Shown piece by piece: positions 4,322 to 63,290 of a DNA stretch of 64,000 nucleotides (within the stretch, counting starts at the first letter, position 1; each line of letters starts with the position of its first letter). The DNA is from Cornus controversa (taxonomy: Eukaryota; Streptophyta; Magnoliopsida; Cornales; Cornaceae). A model generated the notes under the pieces. It searched no databases and had not been told where the DNA came from. It was given only the letters and a program-made list of their open reading frames with translations. Both the position numbers and the translations under genes were made by a program. The stretch covers positions 33,553,501-33,617,500 of the forward strand of contig CM048846.1 in the NCBI GenBank assembly GCA_026545225.1, read 5' to 3'.

Positions 4322-4555
4322 TTCGATTGAGCAAAATATACCCTTCGATCAATTGAAATGGGTTTTTCTCATAATCAAAATTGGACTTTCGATTAGTCGA
4401 AAGGGTCGATTAATCAGTGGTTCATTGAAGTTCAATCAAAATCCTACTAGAATTTGGCCTATTTCCATCGAAATTATCTCGATTGAAGCTTGTTTAATCG
4501 AAGGCTTTTGATCAATCGAAAAGAGGTTTTCGATAAATCGAAATGCCCTTCGACT
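4322..4555 (-). repeat. Palindrome cluster, TCGATCAATCGA type, in solo LTR
   Basis: Repeated near-palindromes of the forms TTCGATCAATTGAA, TTTCGATTAGTCGAAA and TTTTCGATAAATCGAAA lie 225-455 bases from the LTR terminus at 4099. The same position holds palindromes of different sequence in other LTR copies in the window. Confidence 0.7.
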
Positions 4556-5180
4556 GAAATCCTGAATACATCACACTTAAACACATTCGAGCCCAAATCG
4601 ATCCCAACATATTCTCATCCCTTAGATACATCAACAGAACATTGCAATCATTAATAAAATTTTATAACATCATAATTCTCATACAATTGATCCAAATCAT
4701 ATATTTCATTGATATGACCTTCCAAGTTCATAGTCATCATATGAATTACATGTATACAGTCCATAAGTAGTAGCAATTCAACTGTGACTACAACTATAAT
4801 AAAATCAAGATGCTACAAGCCAGCTTGGATAGCCATATACATAATATCCAAAAATAAAGCGAAAAAGCTACAAGGAGCTCCACTTAGACATTTAAGTCTC
4901 GTCCGTCATATGTACCTTATCTGTAAAAATGTTTGGGGGGAAAGGGGTGAACAAATCTACGAGCTCAGTAGGAATACCCCAACCCACCTAAGCATTGACC
5001 TGACACCAACCTATATGATATGTATGTCACTACACTACATGACACATTCAACGTTCTCATGTACAACCAACGTAATACAAATCAAGAATAAATGCATTAA
5101 ATCCATCTATCATGTTTAACAGTTTAAACACATAAGCAACAAGATATATACACCTTTTTCGGTCATAATCTGATACATTG

Positions 5181-5385
5181 ACATGATTGGTCATCTCCGA
5201 TGATCATGTAACCTTGGACACCTCCAATGACACCCGTATGATTTGGACAACTCTGAAGAATCATACAACCCTGACAATATATTGGTTTTGCCAAATGTGA
5301 ATGGACAACTTCGATGTTCACAAGGTTTATGGACAATCACCAAAGTCTAGGCGTGGTATGATGGGGCAACTCCAATGGTCATACC
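5181..5385 (-). repeat. Stem-loop array with conserved loop core (solo LTR copy)
   Basis: On the plus strand the loop core reads about GGACAACTCCGA. Perfect stems flank it: ACATGAT/ATCATGT (5181-5187 with 5203-5209), GTATGATT/AATCATAC (5236-5243 with 5259-5266), TGTGAA/TTCACA (5296-5301 with 5317-5322) and GGTATGA/TCATACC (5355-5361 with 5379-5385). A further unit, ATGGTT/AACCAT (8272-8277 with 8289-8294), lies across the copy B insertion. The order of units matches the array at 15796-16118. Confidence 0.75.
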
Positions 5386-6647
5386 CTATATAGAGACCGT
5401 GCCCAATTTTGGTCGGTTTTTCAATTTCTTTCATTTATTGCTTTAAATGTATTTTAAATGATATTTAACATGTTTTGAATGCGGGAAACATGTTTAGAAG
5501 GTTAGAATGTGGTTTCGAAAAGTTTTGACAACTTTTAGAAAAGTTTGACTTTTTGGTCAACGGGAGCCCCGGGATGAGGTTAAGTGGGTCCGGGAAATTT
5601 AGAAAATTTTACTTTTGGTTATGAACTAAATGAAATGTTTAGAGTGTTAAGGAAGCAATTTCGAGTCCAACGGAGTTTTCGGGAATTAATTCTGAGGTCG
5701 GGAAGGTACATTAAGTGGTCAGGAGTAAAATGGTCATTTCGCGCCCCTAGGGTTGAGATAAATATCAAAAAGGTCTGAAATATTTCATTTTACAGATCTC
5801 TCTCTCTCTCTCTACGTCTCCCACTTCATCTCTCTCCCTTCTCTCTAGATTCTAGGTCACTTGAAGTGTGATTTGGAAGATCCCGAAGAAGGAAAGTGTG
5901 TAGAGGGCGTTGAGGGCTTCAGTTTGAACTGATCAAAGTTCACATTTTGTGAAGTTGAGAAAGCTGGAATTTCTCAAAGTTGGATTCAAAGCATAGGATT
6001 TGAGGTAGGGGTTCTAAACTCATTTTTACTTTGATTCTATAGGTCACATACTTGTGACATGAAAGATAGATTGGGATTTCTTGAGTTTAGGGTTTTGTGT
6101 ATATGTATATATGTATGAAAATGTGATTTATGCACATCGATAGGTCTAACATGTTAGTTAGGGTTTATGTATGTTGTGTATGTGCAAATGAGACTATGAA
6201 TGTTCTTGATGAAAAATGTGTTCATTTGGTGAAAACATGAAAAATGTGAGTTTTTATAGACTTGTGCATAAAAGATATGATTTTTCTTGTGAAATGCATA
6301 AACATGATGATTTTCATGATATAAGTGCTATAACATTGTGACAATCTTGAGGTGAAAGGAAAATGCATTAATTTGACAAAAATGCATTCATGATGTGGAA
6401 TAAATACATTGATGTGATTATGTGCACTATATGAAAAGCGAGTTTTGGGGCGTGACAACATTAAGAATTAAGGTGAGGGAATGGTCCCTAGGGAGAAAGA
6501 CCTAAAACTTGGCCAATAAGAGACGCTCCCTTCGGGTTAGCAACTCGATAAAGCGTAAGCAGAATTTGGGTGCCGAAGAGACCCTTACTATGGATGGTGT
6601 GATAAGCTAGTCCCCATTGAAGTGATTTTTGGATTTATGTGGCGTGA

Positions 6648-6648
6648 G

Positions 6649-6693
<45 letters not shown>

Positions 6694-6708
6694 GGCTTGT
6701 TAAATTGG

Positions 6709-6736
<28 letters not shown>
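6648..6736. repeat. TA microsatellites inside copy B
   Basis: Two runs of alternating T and A, about 40 and 27 bases, are separated by about 20 bases of LTR sequence. Confidence 0.9.
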
Positions 6737-6741
<5 letters not shown>

Positions 6742-7734
6742 CAAATGCATTGAGATGTGAAGCAACACACATGATTTGAAAAATATGACTGTTTATAGGT
6801 TAAAAGCATGTATACTTGTCATGTAGACATGTAGTGATTTCATATGCATCCATGCGGCCGCCTAAGTTAGAGTAGGGTTGGGTGGATCTTCCTACTAAGC
6901 CGCAGTGGTGCTCACCCCCTACTTATATAAACATTTTCAGATAAGGCGGACGAAGCATGATTAGTTCAATGGACCTTGTTGGGTTCCTTCTTGGATTTTG
7001 ATCTTTTGGGATGTAGATAAATGTCCATGCCGGCTTGTGGCATGTTGACCATAGTTGTAGTGTTGCCTTTACACTTGTATCTTCTTTTGTTTATGAACTC
7101 CAAATGTAAATGCCACACTTGTAGGAAGGAGACTTTTGGGAAATACATGTATAATAACTTCCATCATTTGATACTTGGAGATGTATGGCACCTTAGGACC
7201 ATTTTTCTCTTTAGTTATGATTTCTTGTATGGTTACTCATGAGCAAATAGGGTATGGAAAGTAGGTATGCATGAGTTGTTGAGTGAAGGTGGTAAGAAAA
7301 ATAGATGGAATTACATTTCAAATGTGAAATGCATGTTATGTGAATATACTTGATGGCCATTGAGGCATTAGAGTAACCCTTGGGGGGACACATGCCCAAA
7401 AGTGTCCATTTTGAGTTCAAGGAGTAAATGGAATTTATGTATATAGCAAGAGAGTTGTGTTAGCTTCGATTTGATAGGTCATGGACCTTGTTTGGATTTA
7501 AATTGAGAAAGATATGCATGTTTTAGTACAAGAGTGGATAATCTGACCCACACCCACTAATTTGAGTATAACTTAAGTTTTGATTGGTATTTTTATATGA
7601 TTAAAATTGGGTTCGAAACTAGAGATGTTGAGGATGATCCATGTCAAATTTCAAGTCAAACAGACTTACGGATTGTGAGATATTAGCATTTGAAGTCATG
7701 TTAAAGAATGCTGTCAAAAATTCAGGACAGGTGC

Positions 7735-7866
7735 AGTTTGAGGCGCCTGGAAATCTTTGAGGCGACTCAAAGTGTAGTTTGAGGCGTCTCAAAGGGCTAT
7801 TTTTGAAAACACAAACTCTATGGAAGTTTCAGGCGACTCAAACTGATGTTTGAGGCGCCTCAAAGA
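7735..7866 (+). repeat. Palindrome cluster, TTTGAGGCGCCTCAAA type, in copy B
   Basis: Five copies of a G+C-rich palindrome occur in 132 bases. The last is the perfect 16-base palindrome TTTGAGGCGCCTCAAA at 7849-7864; the others have one or two substitutions, for example GAGGCGACTC and GAGGCGTCTC. It lies about 240-370 bases before the inner LTR terminus at 8107, the same place as the TCGATCAATCGA-type clusters of other copies. Confidence 0.8.
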
Positions 7867-8107
7867 CCTGTAAACCTAAAAAGTGTGGAATTTTATGATT
7901 TTTCAAGATTTATGAGTGGAAATGGAATGTCATGTATGTATGGACTGATGTGGGGCCCATTGGGATGGATAGTGATAAGTATACGCATAGATAATTACTT
8001 GCGATTGATTAGCTTCTGCGGTAATCGAGAAATATGAGGAGGTTCATTGGGGTTTAATGAACGGGTTCACCTCCGATTTTTTAGGACATAGGAAATGGGG
8101 CGTGATA

Positions 8108-8240
8108 GGATGGTATCAAAGTTTGATACTATCGCATGAGTGTGGTTAAGGTTGTTTACGGGGTTGAATGAACGGGTTCGCGACCTGGATTCGGGTCGGT
8201 CCGGGGGAGTTTCGGGCGGTCCGGTTTCTGGGGCGTGACA
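8108..8240 (+). repeat. Extra LTR-end module carrying a primer-binding-site copy
   Basis: A first terminus GGGGCGTGATA ends at 8107 and is followed at once by GGATGGTATCAAAG, resembling the initiator-Met primer site. About 133 bases later a second terminus, GGGGCGTGACA, ends the element next to the target-site duplication. The same module is at 17460-17593, so the LTR of this subfamily appears to contain a primer-site copy within itself. Confidence 0.7.
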
Positions 8241-9390
8241 CCCTAGTGGATAATTTTACCACTTTCATGACATGGTTAGACAACTCCAAACCATATGTAT
8301 GGCTCACTTACTCAATTCCCTGGCAATTACTCATATATGCCTGTTAAGCACATATATCACATAACATAAGATTTTTATGTTTTTTCCTAATGCTGATTTT
8401 CATGTTTTTTCCTAATGCATATTCTTGCTACAATTAAGTCTAGAATGCATTTCCACTACACATTCTCCATATAACCACATATATGTTCAAAGACAGGCAT
8501 ATATTTCATATATACACACATTTCATAATACACCACAACATGCTCTCATTTCATACATATCACAAGTATACATTCACCACATCATATATATCACATTATG
8601 CATCATACTAGCATGTAGAAATCATAATAAGAAAAGGGAATACACAATACCATAGCCCTATCAATTATCTCATACATGGTAACTCAACTAAAACCTCCCA
8701 AAATTCACCGAAACCCTAGGATCAATGACTAAAAGAGAAGAAACACCCTAACCTTAAAATTGAAGGCTTTTATAGCAATTTCCATGAATTCCTCCAAGTC
8801 CTATCTTGCCAAGATTCAAGTTTGTTTGGTTCAAACTGAAACCTTTGCCAAGCACTACAAGTTGTCCTTCACAAGCAACTCCCAAATCCAAGCCTACAGC
8901 CTCTGAAATGAATAGAGAAGGAAGAAAGATGAGGTGGGAGAGAAGAGAGACGGTTAGGAGTGAGTTTGGTCAAGATAGAATGAGTGATTCTCTACAATTA
9001 CATATATTTAAAATATCTAGGGGCAAGAAATGACCAAAATGCCCCTGAGCCACTTAACGTACCCTCTCGACTTCCGTTTTCGATTCTGAAAATGGCTATG
9101 GATTTGAAATTGCTTCTTTAATTCTTTAAACAATTTATTTGGTCTAAAATCACAAATAAATATTTTTCAAAATTTTTTCAAGTTCCCGGGCCCACTCGAC
9201 CCCCTTCCCGAGCCCCGTCAACCCAAAATTCTCAAACTTAGCCAAACTCTCCCAAAACTTCCCAAAACCTCTGAACAAGTTCCCAAACATGTTTTCACAC
9301 TTAAAACATGCTAAAAATCATTTAAAATGTAATTATGACAAAAGTAATGAATAAAATGAAAACTTGCCAAAATTGGTCTTGGTCTCTACA

Positions 9391-13855: not shown

Positions 13856-14600
13856 TGACACCCCCTAATTTCCATGCATAATTTGGCCAGACTTATACTC
13901 AAAAATAGGACACATCAACACCAGATACTAAACAAGCATAGAACACAAGATGCAATAAAAATATATATAAATAGCAGAAGGATAACCTATAAATAATAAA
14001 ATTCCAATCTCTATAAAACTCCATAAATCCTCACTCATTACAACATGGAAATCCCTTAAAATAAGGAATCCTAAATCCAAAATCATAATAAATAAATTTA
14101 AAATTCGTAACATCCTAATCAATGCATAATAGATAAAACCCTACACTAAAAAGATGAACTGAGTGGATGATCACGAGCACCATTGCTAAACCAAATCTAA
14201 ACCCTGTGGCTAGAACTTTCTGAGACCTGAAATATCAACAAAAGGTGGGCTAATCCCACGAGAAAGTCTTCTCTACTACATCCCAACATAGAACCAATAA
14301 ACCCATCATATTAAACCTAAGTAAAAAATAAATAAAGAGACATATAACTCTATATCCATAAGCATGTAATCATATATTATAAATATAAAAAAATGATACA
14401 GTAGCATAGGCTACGACAAATTTATTACACCAGAAACACATAGATATACGGATAACCAAAAACTTGAAACCCTAGGCGATACGTATCAGAGGTGATATGT
14501 TTACGGGTCCAAAGGAGAAGAGAATAGGAAGAACTTGCCTTACAAAATTCAGGGCAGAACATCTTCTTTCCACACCCAAACGATGTGGGATCGTAAGTCC
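13856..14600 (-). repeat. Unclassified LTR-like remnant
   Basis: The segment starts TGACACCCCCTAATTTCC on the plus strand, similar to the reverse-complement terminus of plant Gypsy LTRs, and has no coding frame. It ends against the start of copy C. CCCTT occurs at both edges (13851-13855 and about 14599-14603), which may be a target duplication or chance. Confidence 0.4.
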
Positions 14601-15795
14601 CTTGGGGACAAGAGGGGACAAACACACTTTTTGCATTTTTTGCATTATAATTGCCATAAATGCATTTTGAGTGGTGTTTAACATGTTTTGAGTGTGGAAA
14701 ACATGTTTGGAAAGTGTTTTTAAGGTTTTGGGAAGTTTTCGGGAGAATTGGAGGAGTTTGACTTTTTGGTCAAACCGGGGCCCGGGATGCGACTTAAGTG
14801 GGCTCGGCAATCTGGAAAATTCTCAAAAATATTTATTTTTGGGAATGGCTGAGATGAAATGTTTAGAGAGTATATGAAGTGATTTCGAGACCGTAGGAGT
14901 TTTCGGAATTGAAAAAGGAGTCCGGGAAGGTACGTTAAGTGGCCGGGGGGCATTTTAGTCTTTTTGCAAGCCCTAGATATTTTAAATATCAGTGGCAGAG
15001 ATATTTAGCCATATCTCATGCCTCTTTCTCTCTCTAAAGTTCTCCATCTTCAAAGCTCTCCATTCTCTCTACATTTCGGACCCGTTCGGCTTGGATTCAA
15101 GGCTTGCCGAAGGAGGGAGATACGTAGGGGACGGCTAGGACTTCCATTTGAACCGAATAAAGTGGTGATTCGGCAAGGTAGACTCTGCTGAAAAATTGGT
15201 GAAGTGCTTGGAAGGCCTTCATTTTCGAGGTAGGGGTTCTTCTTCTCTTCTAATTGTCGATTCTAGGGTTTCGGGTGAAGAAGAGAGGTGTAGGTTGTGT
15301 TTCACATGCTTTAGGATGGTGAGAGGTGTGAAAAGTTGTATTTTCTTCTGCTCTAGAGTCCTTTCTTTTCACAATTGTGTATGTTGTGTTGGTGGTAGCA
15401 TGTGGGTTGGAAGCATGTGAGTGTAAGAAATTGATACATAGGCTTTATGTGTTCAATTTGCTGTATATGTGAAAAAATGTGTACTAAGTGTCATGTATGT
15501 GATTATATGTGAGAATGTGGTTGTTGAATGCATGTTTAGTTCTGTGTGCTAAAATTATGCATTGAATGTAGCATGAGTAAAAATATGCTAATTTTGAAGT
15601 TGTATGCATATGAGATAATATATGCATGTGTTATACATATATGTGCTATATGTGGTGTGTGGTGATGGAAAATATGCTTTTTACTTCTTTTTAGTATCAA
15701 TGAGCATGAGTTGAGCATGAAAATAAAATATCATGTGTTTATGCATTCATATTGCACATGTGGGAAGTTGCGGGAAAAATGACGCAAATGAGGTG

Positions 15796-16118
15796 CACGA
15801 GGTTTCGGAGTGGTCCAACCGTGTTATGAGATGTGGTAAAATTATCCACTACGTATGGCCCTCGGAGTTGACCCATCATACTAAGGCTTAATGTCTAGGA
15901 TCGGAGTATGTCCAATATTAATGACCCCTCGGAGTTGTCCCGGTCATAGAATGATTATCGGAGAATGTCCATGATTTGTGAGTCTCGGAGTTGCCCCCTC
16001 ACTCTATGGCAATCCCATATATTGCTATGGTAGAATGACCTTTCGGAGTTATCCCGGTCATTGGATGGTCATCGGAGTTGTCCAAGGTTACATGATCCTC
16101 GGAGCGGGCCAATCATGT
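15796..16118 (+). repeat. Stem-loop array with conserved loop core (copy C)
   Basis: About ten units of roughly 30 bases, most with the core TCGGAGTTGTCC flanked by complementary arms. The clearest are GTATG/CATAC at 15853-15880, ATGACC/GGTCAT at 15921-15947, GTGAG/CTCAC at 15978-16002, AATGACC/GGTCATT at 16034-16062 and ACATGAT/ATCATGT at 16090-16118. The arms differ between units while the core stays recognisable. One unit near 16008-16025 keeps a stem (GCAAT/ATTGC) but lacks the core. Confidence 0.78.
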
Positions 16119-16837
16119 AGGGTATCAGATGAGGACCGAGAGAGAGAGCATTTACTCACTTTAATGCTTTTATGTTTGAACATGTTGTACATGCTTCTTG
16201 AAATATGCAATCCTCTTTAATTGCATTTGTTGATGTGTTTGTGAGATTGTGGATGTGGCATGTAGTGTATTCATATGCATTCCATGTAGGTCGTGTCGGG
16301 TCGGCACTTAGAAGGGTTGGGGAACCTTTACTGAGCCGCAGTGGTGCTCACCCCTTTATTATAAACTCTTTTTACAGATAAAGCGCCGATGACGGATGGG
16401 ACATGAGTGTCCAAGTGGAGCTCTAGTGGTGTTTTTGCTATCTTTTGGATGTTGCACATTTTGTGGCTATCCATGCTGGCTTGTGGCATGTGACTTCCTT
16501 TTAGTGATGGTTGTGCTTTGGACGAATGTAATTTGGATGTATGTATGGGATTTTAAACTTGTTGGGTGTGGAGAGAGAACGGTTTAATATATGTAATGCC
16601 CATGGCGGCACTTAATTCATTTTGATGATGCTTCCATTTTGAATGGGTTGTATTCGTGAAAGAAATGGTTCGTTTTGGTGTATGAATTCAATTATGAATG
16701 TGATCTTGATTGTGAGATTGATGTTGGAACCTTCCATTTATGCTGTTAATCTTGTTCTAGGGGTTCTAGGATGATAGAATGTTGATTGGGCTTCATGTGG
16801 ACCATGTATAGGGCTGTTGGAAGTCCTAGGAGGTGCA

Positions 16838-17090
16838 TTTCGATCAATCGAGATTTAATCTCGATCAATCGAGATGCCTATTTCGATCAATCGAAGTCCC
16901 CATTTCGATTGATCGAAAGGGTGATGATTTATGGTGATTTTCGGAGTCCAGATAGGAGGAATTTCGATCAATCGAGACCCCTATCTCGATCAATATGAGA
17001 TATTGCAGGTCTGGGGTCCCGAGAGGGTGAAAATCTCGCTTAAATTTCGATTAATCGAGATTTCATCTCGATCAATCGAGATTACTATTC
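16838..17090 (+). repeat. Palindrome cluster, TCGATCAATCGA type, in copy C
   Basis: Eight or nine copies of the near-palindrome TTTCGATCAATCGAGA and its T-for-C variant occur, most with the twelve-base palindrome core TCGATYRATCGA. They start about 610 bases and end about 360 bases before the inner LTR terminus at 17459. Confidence 0.85.
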
Positions 17091-17593
17091 ACAGCTTTTT
17101 CCAAAACTTCATTTCGACGAAATTTCTTCGTTCTAGATCGGAATTGAGCGTGGTTTTTTTTGAACTTGAGTATTTTTGGATTCTCTATCCAATGGTGTAA
17201 ACTTCAGTTCTAGATTCCAAACACAGAAAGTTTTGAGGCTCAAAAGTGAGTGATTCTTAAAAGTGTGGGCAGGTAAATGTTCATTAAGGTGTGTGATTTG
17301 ATGTAGGGCCCATGGGGATTAGTCAAGGTGGATTTGGGTGCATTCATATACAAGAATTGAGTTAAGCTTCCGTGGTGAATGAGGGTAATGAGGGCCTATT
17401 GGGCTAAATGGACGGTTTAACCTCCGGTTCTCCGAGAGTGAGGAAATCGGGGCGTTATAGCATGGTATCAAACCTTGATACTAATGCATTGAGTGTAATT
17501 GAGATTGTTCATGGGGTTAAGTGAACGGGTTCACACTCGGGATTCGGGGTCGGTCCGGGGGAGTCCCGGCGGTCCGGGTTTCGGGGCGTGACA

Positions 17594-20147
17594 CTAACAG
17601 TCGCTTGATCTCTACTTTCCAACTGGAATCTAGTTTGGATCTTCATTTGGAACTGAACAAGTTCCTGGCATGCCGACGCTTTCACTAAAAGATTTTTCTA
17701 GGCCAAACACATAGCACACTTACTATTGTCTATATTTTAGTTTGTGCCTAAAATTTCATATTTATAATATTTGTAATTCAAAATTGAAACATCAAATAAA
17801 TGTTTTGGTAGAAGGAATTGACAATTTGAATAAGGTATAAATATGGAAATATAAATTCAATCAAAAGGATACAGTCTTAGTCTACGTCTTAGTCTGTTTG
17901 GCTGAGTGAGAATGATAGGAAGGGAAAGAAAAAGAAAAGCAATATTATTATTTGGGTAAATTACATAATGCTCTACTAAGGTAGTACATATTACACTGAC
18001 ATCTCTAATTGTCGGATATTTTTGTTGGACGAGTTTAAAAACATATTATTTAAATTCAAGCATTTTTGCACCCTATGAAAGTCGAACCCCATACATTTGA
18101 ATTTACGATTTGTCTCAAGAGACTCCTTATCCACATCTGTGGGTTAATATAAGACTTCGTTGATCATTAATAAAGGAAATTTTTGGTTATAATATCAGTC
18201 CTTGCAATATAGTTTGGGTTTGGTGTATATTTTTACTCCAGCCCTTTGGACAAGGTTTGAGGATTGGTATCTTGCTTCTTGATGAAAAATTTTCTTATAA
18301 AGAATTAATGAGAGTTCGTGTAATTATATTATCTCTCAAGAGAGTGGGTGTAATTTTTCCTATTACATGATCTTGAGGAAGATTTTTTTCCAAGGGTTGA
18401 CTGAAATGTATTGTACCGATTTTGTCTCTACACAAAACTTCGATAAAGCTAGACTTGTTGCTTTTTTAGTTAAACGTGCCTCCTTTTAAATTTGGGATTT
18501 CCGGTCTTGGCCATCCATCTACCACAACTCTATAATTAATGGCCTCCAAGTTTTCTTTTCACAATTTGATACAAATAACATCAACCACATATGTGTCAGT
18601 AGAAGTAAAAAAAAAAAAACTACCATTTCATATTCCTTTTGGGTCACTGTTAGAGCATCAGAACTCGTACACAGTAATGTATGGGGACTAGCCTCTTTAC
18701 ATTCAATAAGTGATTTTCATTACAATGTTATTTTTTATATATAATTTCTCCCCCTATTGTTGGATTTATCCTTTCACCTAGAAGTCAAATGTCTATGATG
18801 TATTTGTATCCTTTAAGGAAAAAGTTGAAAATCTTTTTGACCATAAAATTAAAATTTCGTTCTGGCGGCAAGGAGAAATTCACAAGTAAACTTTTTTATG
18901 ATTTTTTTTTTTGGCGTGTCATACGTTAGTTGCGCGATGCAAAAATAATTAAAAAAGTTAAGGTTATTAATTTAATAATGTATTCTAATTTTTCCACCTT
19001 ATTATTAATTATTCAATTAAGGAGAAGTCACCATGTTTTCTTCTTCATCTTCAAAATTTAACCTCAGACAAGTAACAGAAATAAAAAAAGAAAAACATTT
19101 ATTCTTCTAAAAGTCTTTTGTCATAAAATGAACAACTTTCTATGTACACGAACTAATAAGATTTCAGTGCAGTCTTTTCTAGGGACATCTCTCGAACTCT
19201 TTCTACAAAATGTGTGGTCCTTGGACAATAGACATGACCATGAACAATGAGGCTCCTTGCCCTCTATATCTCATCCCACAGAAATTAACCTTCCACACAC
19301 ACAGACACACTGTGTACACACACACTTTATATATATATATATATATATCTATATATATATCTATATATATCTCAACTACCCATTCCCCAATCAAAGGGAC
19401 TGCTCTGCCATATTCTGCAGGAACAGTAAGAAAACAAATCTACTCCTTTCTCTTGTATATTCAGTCTACGTACTATACTTACTGACCATCGTCTCAATCA
19501 CCCCCACAATGTCAAGTGTCAAAAGCTACTATTCCTTTTTTCAGGGTAAAGAGAAAGATAGATATATATATATATAGAGAGAAAAGATGATGAAACACTA
19601 CAAAAGAGCACTGTACAAGGACAAGTTTTCCCGTTTTCCTGTTTTGGGGATCTAAAAGAACAGTCCCAAACCTTAGTTGGCCATTAATATGAAGTGGGAC
19701 CAAACACTCACCTAACCAAAAGATGACATACCCTTCTCTGCTTTTTCTCTCATCTTTCCTTTTCATACTTCTTCATATTTGACAAAGAGAAAAATAAAAT
19801 AAAAACATTTATATTTTTCTGCTTTTTTTTTTTCGTTCTCTCTTCTTTTATCATTATCACTTTAGAGCCTCTAATCCATGAGACCCTTCCATAAAAGCTT
19901 TCTCAAAATTTTCAGCTTTCTGCTCCTAACATCAATCACTACTTGTATAAGCATCTTATTTCTTTAAGTCATCTCTCTCTCTCTCTCTCCCAAACGGCTC
20001 AATCTAACACACGATTCTGCATTCAATGTCCCATGTTTCCTGCAGCTCTCCACACCTTTTCTTCATCAAAACCCTCATAAGCAAGCCACCCCAATTGCAC
20101 CGACTCTGAACTCCCTCTCTCTCTCCTCTTTGCCACAGTTCTGCAAA
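17594..20147. other. Host intergenic DNA and 5' region of the IDA-like gene
   Basis: No gene is supported. The stretch is AT-rich with a TA microsatellite near 19328-19375 and CT-rich tracts near 19975-19990 and 20115-20130, the latter probably in the 5' untranslated leader of the downstream gene. No convincing TATA box was picked out. Confidence 0.5.
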
Positions 20148-30319: not shown

Positions 30320-31708
30320 TATCACGCCCCAAAATCTAGGCCACCGAAATCCCCCGATCCAAGACTGAACTCCGGAGGTTAGACGTTACACTTATTCGGT
30401 CACTGCCCCATGACCCCAAATAAACATTCCAAACAACTTTTTGATACCTTTGCATCACTCCTCGATTCCTACCAGGACCATCGAGATCAATTATGCGGAA
30501 GATTTTATGTAACACCTCTGGTTCCATTCCAGAACATCAATCAAGATTAATTAACCTAAGGTCTTAGTCTCACAATCTTGTAGAAGCATTCTCTCATAAT
30601 TATTGTTAAATTATGCCTTAAATCAATCATCACTAATTAGCCGTCAATTGATAACCAAACCAAGCAGTCCACTTAACTCAGCTTAATTCTCCCCTAAGGC
30701 ATTACGATCAATCGTAATACATGTTACGATCAATTGTGACATACGATCAATTGTACATGTATCGTAACACGTATCATAGCCCTCGAATTTGCTTAACAAT
30801 TGTCAAATTAATTTACCTTAATTATACGTTCCATTTTAATTTAGCTTATGGGCCATCGTAGTTCTACGATCAATCGTAGAACTGATTACAATCATTGTAT
30901 TCTCCCAGGCAGCCAACTTTTGTTTCAAGTCTTAACCATTTAACTCCATCTTTTCACTCACAAACTCACATACATTCACCTGGACATCTTTAAAACATAA
31001 ATGAAATATAAATTACCTATTCATCATCTCATAATCATCATCATTCATAGATTTGCCAACTAAATCTCATCATGTACTTGAATATAATAAAAGAGTCTAT
31101 ATACATGCATTTCGAATCCAAACCTTACAATCATTCAAGGTCTCATAATCATAGTTACAAAATCTCCAAATGTGTACATCAATATACATATGAGCTATGC
31201 ATTTAAGTCCACATTCTAGACATGCATTCACAAAATTACCCGAAAGGTCGTCTAAACTGCACACCCAACTCAAGGTTGGTGGGACTCTGCCACATCCTTG
31301 CCGGTACCTAAAATGTTTGTATATAAAGGGATGAGCTCCTACGTGCTCCATAGAAATGCCTAAAGCATATCTCCTAAGGCCTTGTGCATAGACGCACGCA
31401 AAGGAAAGGAAAACATGCATTAAAGAATCATATCATGCATGCCCAATTCTACATATCACTATGCCATGAATATATTCATTGTGTCATGCACTTCTTATGT
31501 GTCACCCATGCAACTAAAGACTCGCATTCCAATGAAGGACCATCCGGTCTTGTATATCACTTCCATTGAACACCCGAACTCTATTCTTGGTCCTTTCGGG
31601 TTTTTTACTTCCAAATTCCTATGTCGGACCATTTAGTGTCCCTAAGCCTTCCTACATACACTTTCAAACCATGTATGTGCAATGCATGAAAATTTCATAT
31701 ACTATGGT
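30320..31708 (-). mobile_element. Left LTR part of a 9.9 kb Gypsy insertion (element D)
   Basis: The part starts TATCACGCCCC on the plus strand and is flanked by TTGAC (30315-30319), which recurs at 40198-40202 after the opposite terminus, so 30320-40197 is one insertion with later nested elements. The first 136 bases form an LTR-end plus primer-site-like module (TTTTTGATACC near 30437). A TACGATCAATCGTA-type palindrome cluster is at 30706-30880. Bases 31093-31707 are repeated in the right LTR part (from 37557). The run stops where element G begins. Confidence 0.75.
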
Positions 31709-32828
31709 TGTCACGCCTCAATTTTTTATGCCCAAAAATAAGGGTGATTAAGTCAAACACCTACATCTCTCACATACAATCCCACTATGATATCACGCTT
31801 TGATACCAAGTTATCACGCATCGATTTCCAACATCCAAAAATGGGGTGATTGAATTAAATATCAACACCTCTCATCGATCACAAGGATCATTCCAAAACC
31901 ATATAATCGCGAAAGCTAACTATAGATACACAATTACATAAGTGTATACTCATCACCATTTATCCCAATAGGCCCCACATTAGCCTATGCATCCACACAT
32001 ATTCATTCCCATCCTAAAGTTTGTGAAATTCAAACTAAGCTAGTTTTGGTTGGCTGAAACCTTCTTCGGTCAGCTGAAACCTGGGTTCAACTGATCTCCA
32101 GTTTGCGAGTTCTATCGATCGACTGGAGAGTAGTTTCGGTTGCCTGAAAAGGTGCTTTCGGCTGGCTGAAGCCCTTCTCTAGTCGTTCGAAACTAGTTTC
32201 CAATTTACAATCATTCTGGATCTCACACTTTTGGTCGGCTGCTACAGAGAACTAGGGAACTAAAAGTCCCTAGAAGGCCCAAAACCTATACTTTCCAAGT
32301 CAAAGTGCATTCCATTAATTCAACAATTCATACTCAAGCTTAAGCATGAATAACACTCAATGAAATCCATACGTTTATGTCTTATAGGTGCAAAATCCAT
32401 ACATTTCATAGATGTAGTCCAAAATCATATACTCTTAAATATGTTTTCCTCAAGTCCTCAACACTACAAATTATAAGAGCATTTATACAACTCCACTTGC
32501 ATTCGTATAAATAATTTTCTATCTAAAAATGATATATCATTTCAAATGTCTCAACATGCCACAAGAGAAATGGATAATAATATATGTAATCCTCAAAATA
32601 ATTCAAAAATGCTATCGAACATTCCACATGGCCATTCATGTATCATCCACCACCAGTGTCTTATATGTAAAAATGTTTGGGAGAGAGGGGTGAGAAAAAC
32701 AACAAACTCAGTAGGAATGCCCCAACCCACCTAGGCATCAACCCGACACTGACTTACATGATATGCAACCATGATGTCGCTACACTATATGACATTCCCA
32801 ATGTTCTCATGTCAATTTAACACAAATT
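31709..32828 (-). mobile_element. Gypsy LTR fragment (element G) nested in element D
   Basis: The fragment starts TGTCACGCCTC at 31709; a second terminus, TATCACGCATCG, starts at 31812 directly after TTTGATACCAAG, the reverse complement of a primer site. Its palindrome cluster at 32043-32240 is the reverse complement of the one in copy A (GGTCAGCTGAAACC and relatives). It is cut by the Athila-like LTR at 32829. Confidence 0.7.
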
Positions 32829-36559: not shown

Positions 36560-36965
36560 TTTGTACGGGCATTGGGGCTAGAGATTAGTTCATTAGGTAG
36601 AGCAGTTTGTGTTGATACGCCAGTGGGCGGTACAGTGATCCTTGATAGAGTGTGCTAGGGGTGTGCCATTGAGATAGTCGGGAGGACATTTGAGTTCGAT
36701 TTCATTCTACTAGACATAAGTAGTTTTCATATCACACTTGTGATGGATTTGTTATCAGAATTTTATGCTATGATAGATTGTTTTAGAGGGAGAGTGACGA
36801 TTTGTACGCCCGAGGGTGATTGCTTTCGCTTTGTGGGAGATCGGAGTGACTCCTATACTTCACCATGTTATGGCATTAGTAGTCGTGAGCGACACAATTT
36901 TATCTTGGCTAGTCTTTTGGTCGAGGGAGAGGAGATGCTGAGAAAGGTGTATCCGGTAATGATGT
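36560..36965 (+). pseudogene. Gypsy protease remnant (element J)
   Basis: Reading from about 36560 gives degraded Gypsy protease blocks: VCVDTPVGGTVI-like, then EFDFILLDI, and after 36740 MDLLSEFYAMIDC, RGRVTICTPEGD and ILASLLVEGE. Homologous blocks in the reverse-strand element at 61791-62105 are FDVILDIDWLSTYRATIDC. Gag is absent between the primer site and this protease, so an internal deletion has occurred. The frame stays open past the protease into a 42-base minisatellite and ends at 37330. Confidence 0.75.
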
Positions 36966-36973
36966 GCACTATT

Positions 36974-37225
36974 CCGGTCATCTTCTCAGGCGAATTTCCG
37001 GCGACTTGCACGGTTTCGGTCATCTTCTCCGATGAATTTCCAGCGACCTGTACGTTTCCGGTCATCTTCTCCGGTGAATTTTCGGTGACTTGCATGGTTC
37101 TGGTCATCTTCTCCGGCGAATTTCCGTCGACTTGCACTGTTCCGGTAATCTTCTCCGGTGAATTTCTGGCGATCTGTACTGTTCCGGTCTTCTTCTCCGG
37201 TGAATTTTCGGCGACCTGCAATTTT
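36974..37225 (+). repeat. 42-bp minisatellite, six units, open reading frame
   Basis: Six consecutive units of 42 bases each start about GGTCATCTTCTCCGGNGAAT and encode a 14-residue repeat of the form PVIFSGEFPATCTV in frame with the upstream protease remnant. The opposite strand is open too (PEKMTGTVQVAGNS). Unit-to-unit divergence is moderate. Confidence 0.85.
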
Positions 37226-37556: not shown

Positions 37557-40197
37557 CTATATACATGCATTTTGAATCCAAAACTTATAATCATTCAAGG
37601 TCACATAACCACAGTTACAAAATCTCCAAATGTGTACATCAATATACATATAAGCTAGACATCGAAGTCCACATTCCGGACATGCATTCACAAAATCACC
37701 CAAAAATTTGTCTAAACTCCACACCCAACTCAAGGTTGGTGGGACTTTGCCACATATTTGTCAGTACTTGAAATGTTTGGATAAGCTCCTACGTGCTCAG
37801 TAGAAATGCCTAAAGCACATTTCCTATGGCCCTGTGAATACACACACATAAAGGAAAGGAAAACATGCATTAAAGAATCACATTATGCATTCCCAATTCT
37901 ACATATTACCATGACATGAATATATGCATCATATCATGCAATTTTATGTGTCACCCACAAAACCAAGGACTCAAATTCCAATGAAGTTGTAATACCCCAC
38001 TCCAACACATGGTATGATATTGTCCGCTTTGGGCCTGAGCCCGCACGATTTTGCTCTTGGGTTTTTACCTCAAAATGACTCATACTATTTGAAGAGAACA
38101 TACTACATATAAGCACATCCCCTTTTTTACACCCAGGCGATGTGGGATAGAGCACCATGTACCTTATCAGTGTGGTAGCTCAGCCCAGTGTCTGTCTTCG
38201 CACCCGCCCACTCACACCCGTCCACAAGGGTTACTACAATCCACCCCCCTACGAGGCCCGACGTCCTCATCGGCACACTTCTGACTGGGTTCAGGCTCTG
38301 ATACCAACTGTAATATCCCGCTCCAACACATGGTATGATATTGTCCGTTTTGGACCTAAGCCCGCACGGTTTTGCTCTTGGGTTTTACCCCAAAAGGCCT
38401 CATACCATTTGAAGAGAATATACTACATATAAGCACATCCCCTTTTTCACACCCAGGTGATGTGAGATTGAGTACCCTGTACCCTGTCAGTGTGGTAGCT
38501 CAGCCCAGTGTCTGTCTTCGCACCCGCCCACTCACACCAGTCCACAAGGGTTACTACAATCCACCCCTACGAGGCCTCATACTATTTGAAGAGAACACAC
38601 TACATATAAGCACATCCCCTTCTCCACACCTAGGCGATGTGGGATTGAGCACCCTGTACCCTGTCAGTGTGGTAGCTCAGTCCAGTGTCTGTCTTCGCAC
38701 CCGCCCACTCACACCCATCCACAAGGGTTACTACAATCCACCCCCTACGAGGCCCGATGTCCTCGTCGGCACACTTTCGGCTGGGTTCAAGCTCTGATAC
38801 CAACTATAATACCCCGCTCCAACACATGGTATGATATTGTCCACTTTGGGCCTGAGCCCGCACAGTTTTGTTCTTGGGTTTTTACTCCAAAAGGCCTCAT
38901 ACCATTTAAAGAGAACATACTACATATAAGCACATCCCCTTTTCCACACCCAGGCGATGTGGGATAAAGCACCCTGTACCCTGTCACTGTGGTAGCTCAG
39001 CCCAGTGTCTGTCTTCGCACCCGCCCACTCACACCCGTCCATAAGGGTTACTAAAGAAGTACCATCCGGTCTCGCATACCACTTCCATTGAACACCTGAA
39101 CTCTATTGTTGGTCCCTTTGGTTTTTTTACTTCCAAATTCCTATGTCAGTCCATTCGATGTCCCGAAGCTTTCCCACATACACCCTCAAACCATGTATGT
39201 GCAATCCATAAACATTTCATATACTATGCTTATTCTACATTCTCACATAACAATCATACATGCATCAATATAAATCAATGTATCAACGTATGGCATGCTT
39301 TCACAATCTCATTGAGACATTAAATCAAACACATGGCCACATAGTTCATAAAAGTGAACCAAACAAACCCTAAACCCCAATTTGTCACATGTCAAGCCCA
39401 CATAAGTTTCATAGAAGACACATAAGCACATATTCATCATTTGCATATTTTCAAATCATGCAAAGAACATATTTATATATGTTATACATAAAAAAAATAC
39501 TCATGTTACTTATGTAAAACCTTAGTTGTACGCCCTAGGCATCCATCCTACTAACAAAAACCCAAAAAATCATAGGTTAGTCATTCCTACCTATATTTAG
39601 AGGAATTTCTAAACAAAACCCTCAATTCCACCGAATCTAAAATTGCCCAAAACAAATTTTTTTCAGATCAAATCCAGGCTCTCAATACATAGAGCAACCC
39701 TTCCTTCTTCTGTGCCTTCCGAATCACACTCTAAGGTCTTAAAATATTAGAGAGAAGGAATGTAGCCTACTATTTAGAGAGAGAAAATATGGCTGAAATA
39801 TTTTTAATTGGATATTTATAAGCCCACGATGTGAAATGACCAAAGCGCCCTTACGCCATTTAACGTACTTTTTCGGCCTCCAATTTTAATTCCGAAAGCG
39901 GCTACGACCCCAACATCAAATTCCATCTCTTTCCTAACATTCTATTTGGTGTAAATCCAAAAATAATTATTCTCTAAAATTACCCAATTTCTCGGGCCCA
40001 CCTGACTCGTGTCCCGGGCCCCGCAGACCCGAAAATCTTAAAATGAACTAAATGGCTCAAAAACTTTCCCAGATCTCATAACTAGTCCTAGAACATATAA
40101 TTCATATTTAAAACACGTGAAAATCTATTTAATTCATTTCTAAGAGAATAAATAGAAATAAAAAAAAATGGATCAAAAATAACCCGGTGTCTCTACA
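37557..40197 (-). mobile_element. Right LTR part of Gypsy element D
   Basis: The part starts within the LTR, repeating 31093-31707, and runs to the terminus GTGTCTCTACA at 40197, followed by TTGAC, which matches the left duplication at 30315-30319. Bases 39830-40197 align with the reverse complement of the 5' portion of copies B and C (CTCGGGCCCACC, GTCCCGGGCCCCG). A multimeric TRIM sits inside at 37988-39055. Confidence 0.75.
37988..39055 (-). mobile_element. Multimeric TRIM retrotransposon
   Basis: Four LTR copies in a row: 37988-38238, 38309-38558, a 5'-truncated copy ending at 38735, and 38805-39055. Full LTRs are about 250 bases, TGTAATA...TTACTACA on the plus strand. Internal spacers of about 70 bases carry CCACCCCC (reverse of a purine tract) at one side and GCTCTGATACCA (reverse of an initiator-Met primer site) at the other, so the element is on the minus strand. 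The third unit jumps from the spacer into the middle of an LTR at a shared AGGCC. GAAGT flanks the whole array (37983-37987 and 39056-39060), so it arrived or grew at one insertion site. Confidence 0.88.
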
Positions 40198-42405: not shown

Positions 42406-44121
42406 TAACTAAAAATTTTGGTAAAAATATTTTGACTTCCCATGTCAAAGTTAACTAAATTTTCGTATTGCCTTCACTAAAAGTCTTTTAAAGATGATGT
42501 GTATGTTGACTTCATAAAAAAAATAAAAATCCCAAATGTCAATAATGCCCACAAGATTTCTGAAAACCCATACTTCCTTAGTTCCTTCTCCTCCTCCTCC
42601 TCCTCCACTTCATCATCTGCGTACCCTTCCAAGTAAATTCACAAATGGAGGTCTCAACCAAAGCAAAGGAAAAATAGAGAGGGTCTCAACCGATTGAAAT
42701 CTGTGACACAAATCAGTCCAAAAGCTCTACCCCAAATCTCTCACTGAAGCAGCAAACACATATTTACAAAACTTAACTGTCCACGACAGCTAACAATCTG
42801 ACCCATTTTTTGGGCAATGATTACACTCCTTATTCTGTCACTACTCGCTATGGCCTCCACTGCATCGACGAAGTAGTGCCATTTTCGCGATGCCTTTCCT
42901 ACACTTCCTCGTCGCCAAATAACGTTTCATCGACTCCTTCATTTCAGTACTATGATGTCTTCTCATTGGCTTTAGACACCGGCGACACCAACCGCCTCTG
43001 TCACCTAATTCGTCGGCCTCTACTCCTTGGTTTTCCTCTGAACTTGACTGGACGACTCTCTCTCTTTTCTCTGTCTTCTGAAGAACACCGGACCTCATAC
43101 TGATGATGGCTCTCTAATCTATCTGTTCAGTTTAGGATTGAATCTTCATATTTTAATTGAATTCATACATTCTATATTTAAATTTGATTTGAATTTTTGG
43201 TTAATTTTGAAATTTTTTGATTTTGTAATTAATTTGTACTGATTTGCGCAGTGAGTGATGAAATTAAAGAGCGATATATACACATATAGGTATCTATGTA
43301 TGTATATGTGTGTTTGCATCGCTCGGGTTTGGATTTACATATTTTGATTAAACTTCTATTTTTTGAATTTAAATTTCATTCGAATTTGTAGTTATATTTG
43401 AACATTTTGAATTTTGTTAGCATATTGGACCTCAAGAAAAATCAAAGAGCAGTAAACATATATATATATATATGCACATATATGCATATATATGTATACA
43501 TATATATTAATTTATACATTGTGATACATGTATTTAAATCAGTTTAAGAAAATTATGAGGTGGAGATATCTCCTTAGGAATTAAACTGGAAAGATTAATT
43601 TCTTATTGTGTGATATGCGCCGGGGGGGGGGGGGGGGGGGGGGGGATTATTTTACTATTTCAAATAGTAGACTAACTCATGGCTAAGTTGTTGTTAGGAC
43701 CATAAAAGAAATTGAACTAGAATGTCAATATTATCCTTATGTAGAGAAAATTACAATATTAACCCTCGTAATTATTTGTACTGACGAGTATACCCATTAC
43801 TATATGACAAAAATGCCCTTATGCTAAAATTGCAAGGAGTCACAACCCATACATATACACTTCATATTTATCAAAATACAACAAGACTCATGAACAACAC
43901 TGAAATTCTGTTCATTCATAATTCCATGCTTAATTAAAGTAAAATCTAAACCAAATTTGTCCTAGAAACACAAACAATTTCCACACATTAAATATATTTT
44001 TTCACACATATAAATTTGATTGAAATAGGTAGATTTAATGTGTAGAAATCAATTATTTGTGAAAAACCGTTACAACAGCGTGTTGTAACAGCGATCCTCT
44101 CGTGTTCGGTGATAATTGGAA
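42406..44121. other. Intergenic DNA with a local duplication and a poly-G run
   Basis: No gene is recognised; the frames near 42810-43103 show no domain on either strand. Two related units of about 185 bases start near 43136 and 43323 (shared ATTTAAATTT..ATTTGAATTT blocks and GAGCGATATAT/GAGCAGTAAAC ends). TA-rich microsatellites occur near 43455-43510. Confidence 0.45.
43622..43645 (+). repeat. Uninterrupted run of 24 G
   Basis: A single homopolymer of 24 guanines follows ATGCGCC. It is exceptional in this AT-rich region and could fold as a G-quadruplex; its length may be unreliable because such runs are error-prone. Confidence 0.85.
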
Positions 44122-48270: not shown

Positions 48271-51200
48271 TTAAATATTTTTCTGTGACAACCTTTTTCT
48301 TGTCTCCGTAACTGCTTCCTGCCTTCTCTTATATATGTCCTTGATCTCCTCCTGGTATTGCAGTTCAATCATTTCCAGTTCCAATCTCAACTCCTCATCT
48401 TCATCCTTGAGAGAGAGAGAAGAAAAATAGACAGGACAACTTGAAATGGTTGACACACTATTGCAGCCCGTGTCCACGATCTTGCCTATATCACCAGGGC
48501 TCAGATCTGATTCCACTCCTAACATGGATTTCGCAAGTGGTCTCTGCAATCCATTTCGATTACAATTCATGCATCCCGTCTCTGCATTCACGTAGTTATT
48601 AGTTAAGCACCTCTTATCATTCCCCTCGTTAGAGACTGCACAAGTATATGACATTTCAAAACACCAATCTTGTGTAATGGACTTACCCTGAAATCCATGA
48701 TCAGCACGAGAAATAATCTCATCAGGCTTTGAAGCATCAGGGCCATCCTGCATTGGATGAATGGATCCTTCATAAGAACTTGAAGCAGGAGAAACCAGAC
48801 TTGGAAGATTAACAGCTTCAGTAGTGTTTTGAACAGATGGAACTGATCTTTCTCCTCCGTGCTGAGGTGACTGAGAGTCCTTGTGATGACCTTCAGGGGT
48901 TTGAGTTGTACTCAAAGCAGCTAGATGATCAACAGAAACACAAGGTTTCCAATTGGGTATTAAATTTATCAACAACAAATCAATCAGCTCTGCTATGAAT
49001 AGAACATTCTGATCTGCTAGTTCAAGTTGCTCAACCATTTCACTAGAAACCGAAAGGGCTGTATCACTATCAAGGTAGAACAAGAAATGGATATTCCTGA
49101 CCCGACCTGCATCTAAAGAAGAAGAATAATTACTTCCCAACTGTACATACGTGCATAAGAAAATCTCAGTAATAATAATTGAATGCAGAGAAGACTCAGA
49201 AGATAAGAGTGGTAATGAACTATAATAAAGCATGTGATTACCATTCTTATCTGCTATTCTGAGTATAAGCGATACAGAATTTTCATCAGTACCCTCGCCC
49301 TTTAACAAGAAATCATTGCCTTTCCTTGATCTCCGTACCTCCAAGCACAAAGACTGAGACCCTCCATCCACAGAATTATCAACAAAGGTGATGATGAGCT
49401 CACCATCATCATCAGAATCAACATCCACGGAGGATGGCCTATTCCGTGCTGTAGTAGGTCCTTCTGAAAGCAGACACCGATCTCCAAAAGCTCCCATTTT
49501 AGGTACAACTATATCTGGAAGTAGCAATGGACAGTTTTCTGGTGATCCATCCATTTGGAGAAAAGGGTCTTTCAGAAGCTCCTTTGCTGACAATCTTTGA
49601 GATGCTGGGACTAGACACTTCTCTATGAAAAGTTTCACTTCTGGATCTCTTACCTTAGAGAGAGCAGCAGGCTTTATTCCCTGTAAAGGACTACTATCAC
49701 GTAACTTACCAATGTTTAGCAAACTTCAGAAGTTAAAGAAATACAATATTTAGTTATCCTAAATAACTTACAGATGAGACCTTCTTATATATTTGAGCTG
49801 AATTTTTACATTCACTATATGGATATTCAAATGTCACCATCTCCAGCATACACATCCCAAAAGAGTATACATCAGCCAACTCATTGTAATCCTCATCATA
49901 CAGTTCTGGTGCCATAAACTCGGGGGTTCCTACAACAATCACATCAACATAAAAGTTAAACAAACCAGCATGAAACAAGAAAAGTGGGCACAAAGACATA
50001 AAAGAATCATTCAAATAATCCATCAAAATGTGAAACATGATGTGGGATGAGTTTTATCTAATTCACTCCCATCCCCCAAGACCACTGCAAATACACACAC
50101 CGGTCCCCCCAAAAAAATATATATATGAAAAAGGAAAGATAAACACTAATGGCCTTTATAACGACCATGTTCATTATAGTTGGCCATTACCAATTTAGCA
50201 GTACTATATAGGGAAACGCTATATATACCAATTACACTTCTTGCATTAGCTTGTTGCATGACCGTAGCAAGCCCCAGATCTCCGATCTTAACTTCGCCCT
50301 GATGGCCATTTATAAATATGTTATCACACTTAAGGTCCCTATGCATAATTGGCGGGTCTTGACTGTGAAGGTAGTTCAAACCCATCAAAATCTGCCTTGC
50401 CCAACACTTCACAGCCTTTATTTGAACCTTCTTGTGTTTCTTGCGGTACCTAAATCACCAATCACATCCACTAATCACGGTACTAACCTCACCACAGAAA
50501 ATATAAAGAAAATTTTAAAGAGAGATATGATGAAGAAAAAACATACTGTCTCAGGTTACCCGAAGTGAATAACTCAGTAATTATATTAACCGTCTTGTTG
50601 TTATCATCTATCCAAGAATTATAATACTTAATTATGTTGTTATGTTTTAAGGATTTCAATAGATGGACTTCAGAGTACAGCTTTTCTAAGTCTTCTGGTG
50701 ACTGTAGCACCTCATCAATCCGAACTTGACTCCAAGCAACCTCAATCCCGTCACCTTCATCAAATGCCTGGTAACTGTAAAAAATAAAACTAAGGAAAGC
50801 ATGTACTCAAAGAAGACTAATTTCAGAAACACAAAAAAAAAACATAAAAAAAAAGAAGAAAAAAAGATCTAGGCTGCAGTTGGCTGCATAAAATTAGGTC
50901 TAAGTAGTATCAACACATTCATTCACAGTAATTATGATTCAGTCAGACACTTGTGAGTCTGATACTTATCCAGCACAAAATTAGGCTTTGACATTCTTTG
51001 CATACATCCTTAATATTTTTTTTAAAAACTAATCATAATAATTTTAGGCATTTCAGTACTCACTGGCATGCACTAGACACTCTTGGGATCCTTTTATGTT
51101 CTATACTTCAATAGTATTTTTATTTTTCCACAATATGACCCCATAATAGGGACTGGTCAGCCAGGCTTGGAATTACGTTTGTGACAGCAGCATACATTGA

Positions 51201-62339: not shown

Positions 62340-63290
62340 ACTCTAAGTACTCTTTTTTTTAGGACAGTTCCAATTAATGTGCCCCATCTGTTGACAGTGA
62401 TAACACATCTTTTCACACACAAAAATAGCCTGCACTTATGTACACTCAGACCTGTAGTGCCCAGGTTGCTGACAATTGAAACACGCCACTCTAGATCATA
62501 AAGATCCTGTAGGAACAGTCACAGATCGAGCCTGTTGGTGCCCTTGCAAGAATAAACCACCATCCTTTTGCTTCTTCCTAGCACGACTGTCCATAATAGA
62601 CCCCATTCTCTTCATCTGATTCTTAGCATCCCATATCCTCTTATTGTCATTACTAACCTCCTCTGCTATCAGTGCTCTTTCCACTACCGTAACATACCTT
62701 GTCAAGGCCAAAACTGATACTCTATCCCTTATGAAAGCCCGAAGACCTCTCACAAACTTCTTTACCTTGATTCCTCGTTAGGAAGTGAATTTGGTCTCAT
62801 TTTCTATGACTATCATATTGCCTTAATGTAAATCAAAGAATTCTTGCCTTAAGCTAACTTTCACTGTCACCGAAAAATATTTCTCGAAAAACAATGTTTT
62901 AAACATATCCCAATCCACCACCTCAATATCATTGTAATTCCTAATGAACTTCCACCAATGGTTTCCCTCACCCGTAAGGTGATGAGCGGCCACCTTCACC
63001 CTTAAGTATTCCTCAACCTCTAATGCGGTGAGGAGTTTGACTATTTCGTCTATCTAATCCTATGCCACCATAGGGTCAGACCCTCTAGCGTATGATGGTG
63101 GATTGTGCTTCTTAACATGTCCCAAAGCCAACATTATCCTACTAGGACCCGCTCTAGGTTAAGCCTGATTTTCCTCTTGTGTTTCCTTAACAATTTGTCA
63201 TATGGTTGTAACTATGTCCTGCATAAATTACTCTCCATAAATAGGAACTGTAGTTGCTCCTCTACGAGCTCTTCGTGGTGGCATCTTGGT
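62340..63290 (-). pseudogene. Gypsy gag remnant with two zinc knuckles (element L)
   Basis: It starts at about 63284 with MPPRRARRGATTVPI. The capsid domain (VKVAAHHLTGEG, WWKFIRNYNDIEVVDWDMFK, LFFEKYFSVTVKVSLRQEF) lies at about 63010-62830. A more intact frame at 62753-62496 contains FVRGLRAFIRDRVSVLALTR. CCHC knuckles CFNCQQPGHYRSEC and CYHCQQMGHINWNC are at about 62485-62370. Several stops occur. It is homologous to the gag at 1622-2765. Confidence 0.82.

Follow-up and report, generated by a model that had tools for sequence, protein, structure and literature searches.

Why would an LTR hold a row of short stem-loops whose loops look alike while the stems that carry them change from one unit to the next? 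The question arises from two related LTR copies in a window of 64,000 nucleotides (the whole stretch of DNA that was analysed), which resembles plant nuclear DNA and contains LTR retrotransposon remnants nested in one another. Among the best 120 of 7998 candidates scored as relatives of an RT/RNase H piece nearby, those with a named source come from plants (Cornus, Dionaea, Stephania, Actinidia, Rosa). The two copies and the insertion that interrupts one of them are as follows.

14628 to 17595, + strand: LTR copy C, ending in GGGGCGTGACA and reading as a solo LTR; ends judged by eye
About 9390 down to 4099, - strand: LTR copy S, a relative of C; judged by eye
5389 to 8240, + strand: LTR-derived insertion splitting the array of S

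The start of copy C is approximate and by alignment falls about 28 bases short of S; over the longer aligned stretches the two are 68-71% identical. The CCCTA at 5384-5388 and again at 8241-8245 reads as the target-site duplication of the insertion. This insertion (5384-8245) may itself be composite, as an LTR-end-like GGGGCGTGACAAC lies inside it at 6447-6459. No internal region of C or S was seen in the window, and the elements' own Gag is thus unseen. From motifs in the LTRs the family may be Tekay/Del, and Ty3-like RT/RNase H and protease pieces are present in other elements of the window. The surroundings are rich in repeats of other kinds. LTR-end-like and primer-site-like sequences recur within or beside LTRs at 17449-17470 and 63540-63760 (- strand), and short repeats of the TTTCGATCAATCGA type occur in or near several LTRs (16837-16916, 4502-4543, 58798-58877, 63800-64000). 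Beside another LTR, at 38079-39053, sequence is duplicated in tandem (periods of 177 and 497 bases), and a 42-base repeat occurs six times at 36965-37220 with one reading frame open throughout. A 483-aa ORF at 48271-49722 (- strand) has no Pfam match; we presume it to be the end of a plant WNK kinase.

The hairpins themselves form two arrays, one in each copy.

15796 to 16119, + strand: stem-loop array of copy C, with nine core units and two hairpins without the core
15796 to 15823, + strand: unit C1, GGTT/AACC plus CAC/GTG enclosing TCGGAGTGGTCC
15833 to 15849, + strand: C2, GTGG/CCAC hairpin, core absent
15853 to 15881, + strand: unit C3, GTATGG/TCATAC with one G-U pair, loop of 17 nt
15901 to 15913, + strand: C4 core, good stem absent
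15921 to 15947, + strand: unit C5, ATGACC/GGTCAT, loop of 15 nt
15958 to 15970, + strand: C6 core, good stem absent
15978 to 16002, + strand: unit C7, GTGAG/CTCAC, loop of 15 nt, partner of S5
16008 to 16026, + strand: C8, GGCAAT..ATTGCT hairpin, core absent
16034 to 16062, + strand: unit C9, AATGACC/GGTCATT, loop of 15 nt, partner of S7
16072 to 16083, + strand: C10 core, exact TCGGAGTTGTCC, outer stem absent
16089 to 16119, + strand: unit C11, TACATGAT/ATCATGTA, loop of 15 nt, partner of S9
5181 to 5209, - strand: unit S9, ACATGAT/ATCATGT, loop of 15 nt
5216 to 5227, - strand: S8 core, good outer stem absent
5236 to 5266, - strand: unit S7, GTATGATT/AATCATAC, loop of 15 nt
5296 to 5322, - strand: unit S5, TGTGAA/TTCACA, loop of 15 nt
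5331 to 5343, - strand: S4, degenerate core (TTGGTG), stem absent
5355 to 5385, - strand: unit S3, GGTATGA/TCATACC, loop of 17 nt
8269 to 8299, - strand: unit S1, separated from the other S units by the insertion

The array of S, on the minus strand and interrupted by the insertion, thus has seven core units. Seven of the 16 core units (C5, C7, C9, C11, S5, S7 and S9) share a common build: 5-8 bases of arm are followed by two further bases, TCGGAGTTGTCC or a near form of it, one more base and the matching arm, giving a 15-nt loop of NNTCGGAGTTGTCCN. The loops of C1 and S1 are shorter, and a good stem is missing from five core units (C4, C6, C10, S4 and S8). All four arm pairs given in the original prediction (ATGACC/GGTCAT, GTGAG/CTCAC, AATGACC/GGTCATT and ACATGAT/ATCATGT) do lie at the predicted place in C and enclose a TCGGAG core. 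The array itself is real, and the observation is confirmed in part.

As a sequence motif, the core belongs to these arrays. With up to two mismatches allowed, 12 occurrences are counted in the 64 kb where 2.5 would be expected; none of 100 shuffles attains that count, and all 12 fall inside the two arrays. The exact 12-mer is found in two of the nine C units and the hexamer TCGGAG in all nine, the latter count being partly circular, as likeness to the hexamer was the criterion by which units were collected; the S units carry TCGGAG or a near form. Once arms made up only of A and T, or of fewer than three different letters, are excluded, the 64 kb hold 23 inverted repeats with a stem of at least 6 and a 15-nt loop, six of them in the two arrays. 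Ranked by raw density of inverted repeats, the S array is level with one other place in the window (about 43161-43600) and C is lower, so density alone is insufficient to single out the array.

Comparison of C with S depends on which units correspond. Alignment gives the orthologous partners C1/S1, C3/S3, C4/S4, C7/S5, C9/S7, C10/S8 and C11/S9, and places C5 and C6 in a stretch that C has in addition to S. The order-by-order comparison of the original prediction was therefore misaligned, and the true compensated changes are fewer than it implied. In particular, its contrast of ATGACC/GGTCAT with TGTGAA/TTCACA, which would amount to six compensated pairs in one stem, is an artefact of this misalignment. 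The TGTGAA/TTCACA of S aligns instead with GTGAG/CTCAC of C, a difference of one compensated pair (G-C against A-T) together with an end pair present in S only. The largest change is found between C9 and S7, where AATGACC/GGTCATT aligns with GTATGATT/AATCATAC; here three pairs are compensated, two of them adjacent and altered together from CC/GG to TT/AA, and an end pair is again confined to S. In the same register, C3 and S3 differ by one G-U against A-U and by an end pair in S only, and C11 and S9 by an end pair in C only. Outside the common register, C1 and S1 read by eye as CAC/GTG against CAT/ATG.

Loop and stem have diverged in different ways. Among paralogues, the 12 bases of the core are 85% identical in C (7 units) and 77% in S (6 units), compared with 28% and 30% for the arms, a contrast that is partly built in as the units were found through the core. 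Between orthologues, for which this bias is weaker, the identities are 81% for the core (14 of 72 positions differ) and 70% for the arms (29 of 96 differ) over six of the seven pairs, C4/S4 being omitted. The loop looks conserved as sequence and the stem as pairing.

Whether the stems pair beyond chance can be judged by scoring each left arm against the right arms of all units, with Watson-Crick pairs only. Over the 16 units, none of 100,000 permutations reaches the observed pairing of arms with their own partners; the observed sum is reached by 27 of 100,000 for C alone, by 95 of 100,000 for S alone and by 2 of 5,040 when orthologues are tied together. The excess is smaller once G-U pairs are allowed (258 of 50,000). 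Pair counts were taken from an alignment of 13 core units; the other three, C4, C6 and S4, were omitted for a core that is one base longer or degenerate. Standard pairs fill 72.1% of the cells against 46.6% in shuffles, both-sided cells number 34 against 14.6, and covariation is 0.681 against 0.248, each value being reached by none of 500 shuffles; slid controls give at most 46.2%, 10 and 0.297. The two remaining measures, which are those that relatedness inflates least, are not in excess: pairs with both-sided change stand at 8 of 8, their ceiling, against 7.0 (175 of 500 shuffles reach this), and further pair types at 21 against 18.2 (84 of 500). The units being mutual paralogues and orthologues, no pairing statistic here is a clean probability. 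RNAalifold, run unconstrained on the 13 rows, recovers six of the eight pairs of the stem, all of which show both-sided changes, and adds two inner GG/CC pairs with zero compensated changes. The inner GGA/TCC pairing is not maintained as such, GG/CC alone being retained.

A substitution null for the fate of pairs was applied to four of the seven orthologous pairs (C3/S3, C7/S5, C9/S7 and C11/S9), whose stems lie in a common register, a choice of stemmed pairs that favours the structure reading; it leaves out C1/S1, which is in another register, and C10/S8 and C4/S4, which hardly pair. The four stems hold 29 pairs, with 14 of 58 sites changed. Four pairs have changed on both sides yet still pair, where the null gives 0.69 (P 0.0009). 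Pairs found in one copy only are fewer than expected (4 against 8.9, P 0.009), and all of these are terminal pairs on the outer side of the longer stem. The total of changed pairs that stay paired, 5 against 3.5, is not unusual (P 0.25). Taken together, the hairpin stems pair more than chance, which suggests a structure kept by selection, on an evidence base of 16 units in two LTR copies of one window. Stem-loops with a conserved loop and stems conserved in their pairing, as would characterise a retroelement packaging signal, are thus present in both copies, two of the five pair-count measures lying within shuffles.

Folding energy counts against it. Whole arrays fold no better than shuffled sequence on either strand (z of +1.70 for C in sense, -0.92 in antisense and +1.42 as DNA; +0.56 and -0.22 for the larger part of S in sense and antisense). 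Among the 13 single units, the best z values are -2.47 and -2.29 in sense and -2.63 and -2.41 in antisense. Across the aligned cells there are 69 Watson-Crick and 6 G-U pairs, and the 6 G-U are about as many as the 4 A-C mismatches, counts that do not tell the strands apart. In 550 nt of context and with no span limit, C1, C5, C7 and C11 are predicted likelier in sense and C9 equal, sense exceeding antisense in four of six C stems; under a 60-nt span limit, sense is preferred by C1, C7, C9 and C11, with C5 about equal. Of four S stems, taken in 290 nt of context, two favour sense without a limit and none does with it. Predicted formation in context is 0.0 for C3 on both strands and 0.01-0.08 for S5. 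Since the C stems are mostly likelier in sense and those of S are not, sense RNA appears to be favoured mildly, by C alone. The claim of a selected structure in the original prediction is therefore a fair reading of the pairing tests, to be set beside an ordinary folding energy and two of five measures within shuffles. Its picture of alike cores on changing, still-paired stems is borne out by arm permutation, pair counts and the substitution null, less the misaligned six-pair example.

Where the array would lie in a transcript can be read from motifs shared with other LTRs of the window (^ marks the putative splice point).

15230 to 16377, + strand: putative LTR intron holding the array, GAG^GTAGGG ... 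TTTTTACAG^ATAAAG; motif likeness only
15230, about 8752 (- strand), about 6005 and about 39590 (- strand): donor-like AG^GT sites
16300-16390, 4900-5000 (- strand), 6880-6960, 320-400 and 32650-32760 (- strand): block ACTGAGC...GCTCACCCC or a similar sequence, followed by a T-rich tract

The aligned LTRs have a TATA-like, CT-rich stretch, and the array lies downstream of it. A donor-like AG^GTAGG or AG^GTTAGG follows the CT-rich leader in all four LTR copies aligned, and an acceptor-like, T-rich tract ending in AG is found near the equivalent of 16377 in five of seven copies; these splice-like motifs were read by eye, and the aligner misplaced some rows. If the sites were used, the intron of C would measure 1148 nt. 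T content barely marks it, at 0.348 against 0.326 and 0.334 in the remaining LTR. RNA splicing is described for the plant retrotransposons BARE1 (available text of PMC3735527) and Ogre (available text of PMC6317226).

The array appears to be particular to one group of LTRs. An Infernal covariance model built from 13 of the 16 core units matches the two arrays 13 times, the weakest of these at E 0.18, and the next match, outside them, has E 0.2 (13.5 bits); no further array besides C and S was found with it in the window. In other LTR groups (6466-6600 with 1-100; 31525-31665 with 39050-39190) a similar place is taken by different conserved blocks, none clearly more stable than shuffled sequence (z -0.52 to -1.10), so the hairpin array is not general to the LTRs of this window. 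Rfam gives no match in the window at its gathering score; relaxed to E up to 1 over 14600-17600, its one match is mir-1206 at 16406-16454, a candidate set aside, scoring 20.6 bits where the gathering score is 70 and lying outside the array. Searches of DNA collections for relatives covered viruses and prokaryotes. Core patterns hit 9, 0, 2 and 0 stretches of viral contigs, and a protein query found no relative; the first nine stretches hold at most two near cores per strand at any locus, and one candidate locus (L006) reads by its genes as phage. A pattern run on genome contigs returned 69 bacterial stretches, rejected as relatives, in which the distance between paired cores is a multiple of three in 115 cases out of 122; one locus with several matches (L073) is an open frame of short repeats. 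On 71 loci (L010-L080) the Infernal model has 27 matches at E up to 0.1, the best at 22.5 bits, and loci scoring as high as the weakest array units are to be expected because the core pattern selected them. Such an array was not found described in the literature surveyed, whose coverage of subscription journals is thin, so absence from print is unproven.

What might these hairpins do? Tentatively, we favour selection at the RNA level, the hairpins most likely serving as a multi-site packaging signal by exposing their GGAG loops to the zinc-knuckle Gag of the element. They would form in tandem in RNA transcribed in the sense direction from one LTR subfamily belonging to a plant Ty3/gypsy-type retrotransposon, the array probably being transcribed given its position downstream of the TATA-like, CT-rich stretch. 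If it lies within an LTR intron, as it may, it would be carried solely by the unspliced genomic RNA. The stems would serve to hold up the loop with GGAG, a motif that CCHC zinc knuckles are known to bind, and the element's own Gag could recognise several such sites for selection, dimerisation or packaging of the genomic RNA. Gag recognition is the most likely job because the loop with GGAG resembles known zinc-knuckle targets, namely those described in the available texts for HIV-1 nucleocapsid (PMC7599994) and for Lin28 on pre-let-7 (PMC3759924). Two reports count against the packaging proposal: in HIV-1, replacement of the GGAG loop barely altered packaging (available text of PMC7599994), and in STNV-1 no role in vivo could be discerned for the signals proposed to direct packaging (available text of PMC6475782). 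As for zinc knuckles nearby, the gag remains of a different element hold two CCHC motifs (62364-62405 and 62442-62483), the first of which scores 20.4 bits for Pfam zf-CCHC, just below the cut-off of 20.8. A zinc-knuckle motif broken by a stop codon is also seen in a second gag remnant at 2476-2517. The fuller picture would have some ten hairpins, with almost invariant GGAG loops on stems that drift, bind Gag as a packaging array within an LTR intron; it is unlikely to be right in every part.

The strongest rival dispenses with structural selection. Template switching, during DNA replication or reverse transcription, would perfect imperfect inverted repeats, so that stems could be kept up by mutation and acquire matched changes in single events; the available text of PMC8794818 argues that hairpins can arise and persist through it, multibase compensatory changes included. 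The joint alteration of adjacent pairs between C9 and S7, the almost exclusively Watson-Crick pairing and a folding energy not above shuffled are all in its favour, and we regard it as possible, if on balance doubtful. It leaves unexplained the loop, which is kept in sequence (77-85% identical against 28-30% for the arms, the loop figure being partly built in) and, in seven units, in its length of 15 nt, and by itself it does not account for a row of hairpins. The same permutation, pair-count, RNAalifold and substitution-null results would serve equally for RNA hairpins with another task, be it in regulating splicing or the export of unspliced RNA, in leader translation or in docking a host protein. 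The position of the array between possible splice sites, with the BARE1 and Ogre precedents, speaks for such a task; those sites are motif likeness, and base composition marks no intron; we consider it rather unlikely.

It is improbable that the array works as double-stranded DNA, with palindromes bound by a dimeric protein, for example a transcription factor, as an enhancer in U3. A weak arm consensus around ATGA/TCAT, arm centres spaced by about 21-22 bp (nearly two turns of the helix) and a TATA-like sequence that follows the array in C at about 16357 would suit this idea, and U3 tandem repeats are known, for example in Tnt1 (available text of PMC3601003). A dimer site, however, fixes its half-site; a palindromic transcription-factor array would show one fixed half-site sequence and no covariation within units, whereas arm permutation shows departures from the consensus to be matched within units beyond what permuted, consensus-keeping arms give. 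With the loop kept as sequence and the stem as pairing, fixed-sequence DNA dimer sites fail as an explanation. Least probable is a functionless, decaying tandem repeat with chance palindromes, for which one could cite the mere two old copies, the five of 16 units with no stem and the ordinary folding energy, but which sits poorly with the permutation and substitution nulls and with three of the five pair-count measures. This ranking is unchanged by the two unexceeded measures, the P of 0.25 or the results under the 60-nt span limit. Should the Gag-recognition reading hold, a hairpin repeated several times per LTR would offer a direct means of studying how this group of retrotransposons packages its RNA, and many genomic copies would separate selection from upkeep of stems by template switching.

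Among known systems, the HIV-1 psi hairpin is similar in presenting GGAG to a zinc-knuckle binder from an RNA position upstream of the coding part, a position that is inferred for the array. It differs in having a GGAG tetraloop, compared with many near-regular tandem copies inside an LTR, a 15-nt loop and putative binding and packaging here. We take the packaging signals of STNV-1 to be stem-loops with a shared loop motif. As described in the available text of PMC6475782, they are likewise several, short and degenerate in sequence, and they belong to a positive-strand satellite virus in which their in vivo role is disputed. The terminal loop of pre-let-7 also offers a hairpin-loop GGAG that is read by the CCHC knuckles of Lin28, but in a single animal microRNA precursor that is not arrayed (available text of PMC3759924). 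Within LTRs, the long R regions of retroviruses carry a conserved stem-loop, although in other hosts and, in the available text of PMC3601003, with no constant-loop tandem array described. The same text places short tandem units of the Tnt1 type in the U3 of LTRs; those repeats are tied to transcription, whereas the stems of the present array vary with matched changes.
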